Program-made: the position numbers and the translations under genes
Assembly: GCA_020847075.1 (NCBI GenBank)
Contig: JADLCS010000014.1
Span: forward strand, 1-64,000
Direction: 5' to 3'
Length of the DNA stretch: 64,000 nucleotides
Source of the DNA: Gammaproteobacteria bacterium
Lineage (GTDB): Bacteria; Pseudomonadota; Gammaproteobacteria; SZUA-140
Shown here: positions 6,488 through 7,299 of the stretch, piece after piece
Layout: every line of letters starts with the position of its first letter
Position numbering within the stretch: the stretch's first letter is position 1
Notes under the pieces: generated by a model
Told to the model about the DNA's origin: nothing
Database searches by the model: none
The model's input: only the letters and a program-made list of their open reading frames with translations

Positions 6488-7000
6488 ATGGCTGCGGTCA
6501 TTGCCCTATTGCGTGCCGTGAATGTCGGTGGGACCGGCAAGCTGTCTATGGCCGAACTCAAAGCGATGTGCGTCGCCAAAGGGTGGTCGAAGGTTCAAAC
6601 TTACATTGCCAGCGGCAATGTCGTTTTCGAGACCAAGACGTCGCCAACAAGGATCAAAGCCGCACTTGAAGCGCGGTTAAGCACGTTTGCTGGCAAGTCC
6701 GTTGGCGTCATTGTACGTACGGCGGATGAAATGATTGCGGTTTTGAAAGCCAATCCTTTCCCGAAAGCGGCTCCAAATCGTACCCTCGTAATTTTTCTGG
6801 ACCAGCCGCCGAAGCCCGATGCGCTTGATAATTTGAGGCACCTCAAAGACGAGGAATTGCGATTGGGTGCGCGAGAAATCTATGTGCACTATGGCGACGG
6901 GATGAGGGACTCAAGGCTGGTGATCCCAGCCGCAAAACTCGGAACAGCCCGAAATATGAATACGGTAGCGAAGTTAGCCGAGATGGCCGCTAATCTTTAG
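6488..7000 (+). CDS. DUF1697 family protein
   Basis: This 170-residue protein belongs to DUF1697, small cytoplasmic proteins of unknown function. It shows the family's N-terminal signature LLRAVNVGGTGKLSMAELK, the block YIASGNVVFE near 39-48, and the C-terminal GTARNMNTVAKLAEMA. No signal peptide or membrane segment is visible. Its base composition and codon choice (caa, ttg, aaa, gat, third-position A/T) are clearly less GC-rich than all neighbours. The lower-GC zone spans roughly 6330-7110. It sits between purF and metZ, which are commonly adjacent in relatives, so it looks like a horizontal insertion. The ribosome site is weak (aagagata). Confidence 0.85.
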   Translation: MAAVIALLRAVNVGGTGKLSMAELKAMCVAKGWSKVQTYIASGNVVFETKTSPTRIKAALEARLSTFAGKSVGVIVRTADEMIAVLKANPFPKAAPNRTLVIFLDQPPKPDALDNLRHLKDEELRLGAREIYVHYGDGMRDSRLVIPAAKLGTARNMNTVAKLAEMAANL

Positions 7001-7119: not shown

Positions 7120-7148
7120 CGCGCCGCGGCTTGACAAGCCGCGGCGCG
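7120..7148. other. Perfect 13-bp palindrome overlapping the metZ -35 box
   Basis: Two 13-base arms (7120-7132 and 7136-7148) are perfectly complementary around a GAC centre. The TTGACA hexamer lies on the centre. A TTTCC tract follows the right arm. It could terminate transcripts from the DUF1697 gene, or be an operator for a dimeric regulator at the metZ promoter. The sequence alone does not choose between them. Confidence 0.6.
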
Positions 7149-7159
7149 TTTCCTACCCT
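7131..7159 (+). promoter_or_regulatory. Candidate sigma-70 promoter of metZ
   Basis: A perfect TTGACA -35 (7131-7136) is followed after exactly 17 bases by TACCCT (7154-7159), which keeps the TA...T of the -10 consensus. The predicted start near 7166 coincides with the 5' edge of the SAM-II aptamer's P1 stem. That agreement is the main support. Confidence 0.6.
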
Positions 7160-7164
7160 TGCTG

Positions 7165-7220
7165 TGTGCGCCGATTTGATCTTCAGCTTGCGGGCGCGTA
7201 ATAAATGCGGCTAAAGCGGA
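7165..7220 (+). promoter_or_regulatory. SAM-II riboswitch aptamer upstream of metZ
   Basis: The segment reproduces the compact SAM-II pseudoknot. P1 strand 7165-7171 (GTGCGCC) pairs with 7193-7199 (GGCGCGT). P1 is followed by the conserved GATTTGATCTT loop start at 7172-7182. The 3' part has ATAAATGC and the hallmark GGCTAAAGCGG at 7209-7219. Loop bases TTGCG (7188-7192) can pair with TGCGG (7206-7210) to form the pseudoknot. SAM-II elements bind S-adenosylmethionine and repress methionine synthesis genes. The downstream gene, metZ, is a methionine-pathway enzyme, as expected. The class is best known from alphaproteobacteria. Confidence 0.88.
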
Positions 7221-7223
7221 ACA

Positions 7224-7255
7224 CCTGCTTTGGCGCGCGCCGATGCGGGTTTTTT
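7224..7255 (+). terminator. Intrinsic terminator of the SAM-II leader
   Basis: Bases 7224-7228 (CCTGC) pair with 7245-7249 (GCGGG), enclosing a GGC...GCC inner stem, and a six-T run follows at 7250-7255. It lies directly after the aptamer and 45 bases before the metZ start, so it is the likely expression platform. SAM binding would favour termination. Confidence 0.7.
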
Positions 7256-7299
7256 CGTTTATGGGCCATGGGTGGCCGCGTGCCGCCGGGAGGTGTGCG

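Follow-up and report, generated by a model that had tools for sequence, protein, structure and literature searches.

SAM-II riboswitches (Rfam family RF00521, SAM_alpha) are built from a P1 stem and an H-type P2 pseudoknot with the conserved segments GAUUUGA, GCUUGC and GCUAAAG, and it is usual for them to have a near-consensus promoter just before P1, a terminator after P2 and a methionine gene downstream (Corbino 2005, PMC1273637). The leader of metZ analysed here (about 7131-7299, forward strand) resembles them in each of these respects. It lies in a 64,000-nucleotide stretch of gammaproteobacterial DNA (assembly GCA_020847075.1, contig JADLCS010000014.1), the whole of which is referred to below as the window. 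The leader differs from RF00521 in that its P1 is formed by GCGCC and GGCGC with a CAGCUUGC loop end, in that its P2 is short in the outer portion, and in that it scores below the Rfam cut-off.

SAM-II was reported in gammaproteobacteria by Barrick and Breaker in 2007 (PMC2258182) and again in 2009 (PMC2704228), so that its occurrence here is not the unusual event that an initial annotation of this DNA had taken it to be. That annotation had also set the locus against many SAM-II members said to act on ribosome access, but the literature has it the other way round: most SAM-II riboswitches are considered transcriptional and a translational example is rare (PMC6061858), and the alpha- and betaproteobacteria are where the 2007 survey most often saw the class accompanied by regulatory terminators (PMC2258182). 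The layout of promoter and terminator and the metZ target, to which the annotation also drew attention, have precedents in the original description of the class (PMC1273637) and in S. meliloti (PMC9373788). For the S. meliloti metZ SAM-II a terminator is predicted and a terminated leader RNA, RZ, is described, and it shares with the present leader both the gene and the predicted mechanism; it belongs to an alphaproteobacterium, in which RNA levels were measured (PMC9373788), whereas the present analysis is computational. SAM-V has a binding core of near-identical fold but is translational and differs in the lengths of P1 and P2 (PMC6061858); no match to the SAM-V family was listed for the leader up to E = 10. 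Judged by its sequence, the metZ leader is a SAM-II riboswitch of the ordinary kind whose termination platform is well formed, and as a single locus it carries little weight, since it adds one more well-formed SAM-II where the type was already known.

A further system that must be considered is the metXZ RNA element of betaproteobacteria, which Leyn 2014 presents as a new element, with no ligand given, in which a pseudoknot is followed by a terminator; its targets are metX or metZ, and it lies before metZ in Methylophilales, Nitrosospira and Thiobacillus (PMC4239095). Compared by that description, the present leader is like the element in its metX/metZ target, its pseudoknot topology and its downstream terminator, and is unlike it in that the element was published as new and without a ligand. 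The same survey, of about 200 proteobacterial genomes, gives no SAM_alpha regulon for its gammaproteobacterial groups in the part of its table considered here (PMC4239095).

The aptamer and its target gene

The features of the locus are collected in Table 1. The metZ product exceeds the curated cut-offs of both protein models (522 for NF006003, 510 for TIGR01325), which upholds the choice of metZ as the riboswitch target in the initial annotation and places a methionine gene directly downstream of the aptamer. Its ATG lies 45 bases past the T run and is preceded, at about 7289-7294, by a GGAGGT ribosome site. Upstream of the metZ leader, a DUF1697 gene at 6488-7000 separates it from purF. In this genome, of which about 90% is present in the assembly, a search for MetJ gave no hit, and a search for the SAH riboswitch was uninformative because it produced no match in any control genome.

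Table 1. Features of the metZ leader and gene in the window.
Feature	Positions	Strand	Details
Putative promoter	7131-7159	+	TTGACA 7131-7136, 17-base gap, TACCCT 7154-7159; predicted start near 7166
SAM-II aptamer	7165-7223	+	Limits from the custom covariance model; 74.6 bits, E = 2.8e-18
P1 hairpin	7165-7200	+	GCGCC 7168-7172 with GGCGC 7193-7197 (five core pairs), extendable to 8 pairs; both-side changes
P2 pseudoknot	7182-7220	+	TTGC 7188-7191 with GC(T)AA 7210-7214, plus outer pairs; register in 225 leaders
Candidate antiterminator hairpin	7207-7238	+	GCGGCUAAAGCGG 7207-7219 with CUGCUUUGGC 7225-7234 and CGC 7236-7238
Predicted intrinsic terminator	7223-7255	+	ACCUGC.UUGGC GCGC GCCGA.GCGGGU (7223-7250), six T 7250-7255; about -16.4 kcal/mol
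metZ, O-succinylhomoserine sulfhydrylase, 395 aa	7300-8487	+	NF006003 647.9 bits, TIGR01325 565.4 bits

A search with RF00521, which the initial annotation had proposed, gave a full-length alignment at 7158-7235 (+) that is significant by its E-value (4.8e-4) and falls, at 26.0 bits, under the curated gathering score of 36 bits. Membership of SAM-II by that score therefore fails, and a scan of the whole window at gathering scores reports one tRNA and no SAM-II. When the leader is scanned with an E-value threshold, SAM_alpha is the best of all 4227 Rfam families, and the leader is the sole convincing RF00521 match in the whole genome. A sub-threshold match of this kind requires independent support, and it is the relatives that supply it. 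In related genomes RF00521 matches at the same place before metZ, above the cut-off in 8 of 39. A custom covariance model built from 30 diverse leaders, from which the window's own bacterial family had been left out, finds a single match in the window, the aptamer of Table 1, and matches 12 of the 20 genomes of that family.

The aptamer core that the initial annotation had read is present where it was placed (GATTTGATC at 7173-7181, ATAAATGC at 7201-7208 and GGCTAAAGCGG at 7209-7219), and the P1 loop (7173-7191) contains GATTTGA and GCTTGC. All of the SAM-II core nucleotides (GAUUU, UUGC and GCUAAA) occur in the window; the assignment of single SAM contacts to them follows the 2QWY structure.

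Among the 30 leaders, both-side changes are found in all six P1 pairs considered and also in two P2 pairs, and the named structure collects 33 cells with both-side changes compared to 11.4 in shuffles, all slid controls being far lower. Nine P2 pairs are possible in the window, of which four are inner (C7191-G7210, G7190-C7211, U7189-A7213 and U7188-A7214) and five outer (C7187-G7216, G7186-C7217, C7184-G7218, U7183-G7219 and U7182-A7220). The four inner pairs are invariant and hence give no covariation signal for or against. It is the outer pairs that support the register with one bulged base, which over 225 leaders is 60% paired, the best of seven, compared to 39-47% for the six shifted registers; an unbulged register was dropped because it pairs less well in these leaders. 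When the leader is folded as a whole by nested energy minimisation, a method blind to the pseudoknot, it does no better than shuffles (z = -0.63). Comparison of leader sequences establishes the identity of the aptamer, its P1, its P2 register and its target gene, and we identify the leader with very high confidence, close to certainty, as a SAM-II riboswitch.

Promoter, terminator and antiterminator

The hexamers and 17-base gap from which the initial annotation had derived a promoter are present in the window, and the arrangement recurs in relatives: in 124 of 225 leaders, compared to 2 in shuffles, the 90 bases ahead of the aptamer contain an exact TTGACA, mostly at 40-49 bases before GATTT, and in 78 leaders it is followed at a spacing of 17 by TANNNT. 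The reading of the -10/-35 pair as a promoter is supported by these sequences, as is the start that had been predicted near 7166, at the 5' edge of P1, where it agrees with the pattern described by Corbino 2005. The -10 hexamer is weak, with TACCCT matching TATAAT at 3 of 6 positions, which accounts for the fact that a simple promoter scan reports nothing at the metZ leader. The -35 hexamer is spanned by a perfect inverted repeat at 7121-7147 (GCGCCGCGGCTT-GAC-AAGCCGCGGCGC, with 12-base arms), whose centre is kept in a sister genome (L020) and has no other exact copy in this genome; the repeat could be an operator or could have arisen by chance.

The hairpin and six Ts that the initial annotation had seen before metZ are likewise present. 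The stem consists of two blocks parted by a U-U mismatch, and this mismatch is probably why a terminator scan finds nothing at 7223-7255. Of 131 unique metZ/Y leaders, 115 have a detected terminator, so that both promoter and terminator recur in the comparison. The metZ leaders of two relatives (L017 and L008) carry the aptamer with no visible T-run terminator, and their expression platform may be different.

The 5' arm of the terminator complements the 3' strand of the aptamer, which means that P2 and the antiterminator compete for this strand and cannot both contain it. In the window the antiterminator complementarity exceeds that of 20 out of 20 shuffles, and in 96 of the 131 metZ/Y leaders the segment that complements the aptamer overlaps with the terminator 5' arm. 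Ungapped complementarity beats shuffles at the 0.05 level in only 53% of metZ/Y leaders, and to judge from these sequences the antiterminator is a general tendency among them rather than a universal feature. When the window's leader is folded, the pairing of the terminator 3' arm rises from 0.23 in the free RNA to 0.83 with the aptamer locked, in a calculation that uses nested folds with an imposed block and so shows that the switch could work in this way rather than that it does; for some relatives the corresponding values are unreliable, as their first T run falls within the loop of the terminator. Sequence and folding thus point to mutually exclusive terminator and antiterminator structures.

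Very probably, then, the leader is a SAM-II riboswitch and shuts metZ off by terminating transcription, and confidence in this mechanism, which draws on sequence, folding and precedent, is high. RNA polymerase would start near 7166. With little SAM in the cell, the aptamer 3' strand GCUAAAGCGG would pair with the terminator 5' arm, the terminator would be blocked and metZ would be transcribed. When SAM is plentiful, the GCUAAAGCGG strand would be locked in the P2 pseudoknot and the terminator arm freed, and transcription would stop near 7255, in the T run, to give a leader RNA about 90 bases long. Since the aptamer 3' strand may pair either in P2 or with the terminator 5' arm, the binding of SAM should free the terminator; that SAM binds, that the switch runs in this direction and that transcription terminates in the cell is what we infer. 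The termination layout proposed in the initial annotation accordingly finds support in the sequence of the two alternative hairpins, in their recurrence and in the folding.

Alternative readings of the leader

It is extremely unlikely that the resemblance to SAM-II is a product of chance, with a score of 26 bits, where the cut-off is 36, representing nothing but sub-threshold Rfam noise, since the independent covariance model reaches E = 2.8e-18, the motif sits before metZ in relatives and covariation is present in the aptamer; comparison with relatives rules this reading out. It is also very unlikely that the leader belongs to the metXZ element as a class apart from SAM-II with an unknown ligand. 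The target genes, the pseudoknot topology (regions 1-4 and 2-6) and the following terminator given in the description of that element (PMC4239095) are the same as here, and the motif found here is carried by the metZ leaders of Nitrosospira, Methylophilales and Hydrogenophilales, as the SAM-II motif is before metZ in Nitrosovibrio. These betaproteobacterial leaders, however, contain the core of SAM-II and conform to its register, which makes it the likelier reading that the metXZ element is SAM-II. On the motif, and as far as the published description of the element extends, the metXZ element is probably itself SAM-II, and if so its separate publication may be redundant with that class.

The remaining alternative concerns the mode of action. 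A SAM-II-type aptamer might act mainly on ribosome access or RNA stability, the hairpin and T run serving as a constitutive terminator of partial strength from which a small RNA results, as at S. meliloti metA, where no switching of the leader terminator by SAM is predicted (PMC9373788). The two relatives in which no terminator is visible are in keeping with such an arrangement, which is nevertheless unlikely for the present leader: P2, with its end at about 7220, stops some 70 bases short of the ribosome site of metZ and so cannot cover that site directly, while the complementarity between the terminator 5' arm and the aptamer 3' strand, together with the response of the terminator pairing to aptamer locking in the folding, argues against a constitutive terminator.

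Occurrence in beta- and gammaproteobacteria

In the GTDB class that was sampled, which takes in the betaproteobacteria and to which these counts therefore refer, RF00521 gives a match with E <= 0.001 in 118 of 369 genomes, of which only 30 reach the cut-off, and in 0 of 14 control genomes. The 36-bit limit is a curated score rather than a structural feature: 88 of these 118 genomes also fall below it, and a model with beta- and gammaproteobacterial leaders among its sequences gives the window 74.6 bits. The gathering score appears to be too strict for beta- and gammaproteobacteria, and surveys based on RF00521 would understate SAM-II in the class because the cut-off hides most of its members. 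The absence of the regulon from the gammaproteobacterial groups in the part of the PMC4239095 table considered here fits a cut-off that misses a SAM-II subtype.

Matches to the motif by pattern include Ectothiorhodospira, Legionella, Nitrosospira and Burkholderia, and the P1 and CAGCUUGC loop end by which the window's leader departs from RF00521 are common to the beta- and gammaproteobacterial leaders collected. We consider it likely that these leaders form one SAM-II subtype which is class-wide, lies mostly below the cut-off and includes the metXZ element of 2014.

The gene most often found downstream of the motif is of the metZ/Y family (141 of the 251 matches that have a downstream gene), and other downstream clusters have MetX, MetK, MetH, MetF and a MetN-like transporter protein as representatives. 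Two leaders (L045 and L053) contain two SAM-II-like aptamers in tandem, with downstream cluster representatives that match no NCBIfam model at the limit used. In four cases (L196, L043, L055 and L060) SAM-II-like leaders, several of them with a terminator, lie ahead of metK, the gene for SAM synthetase.
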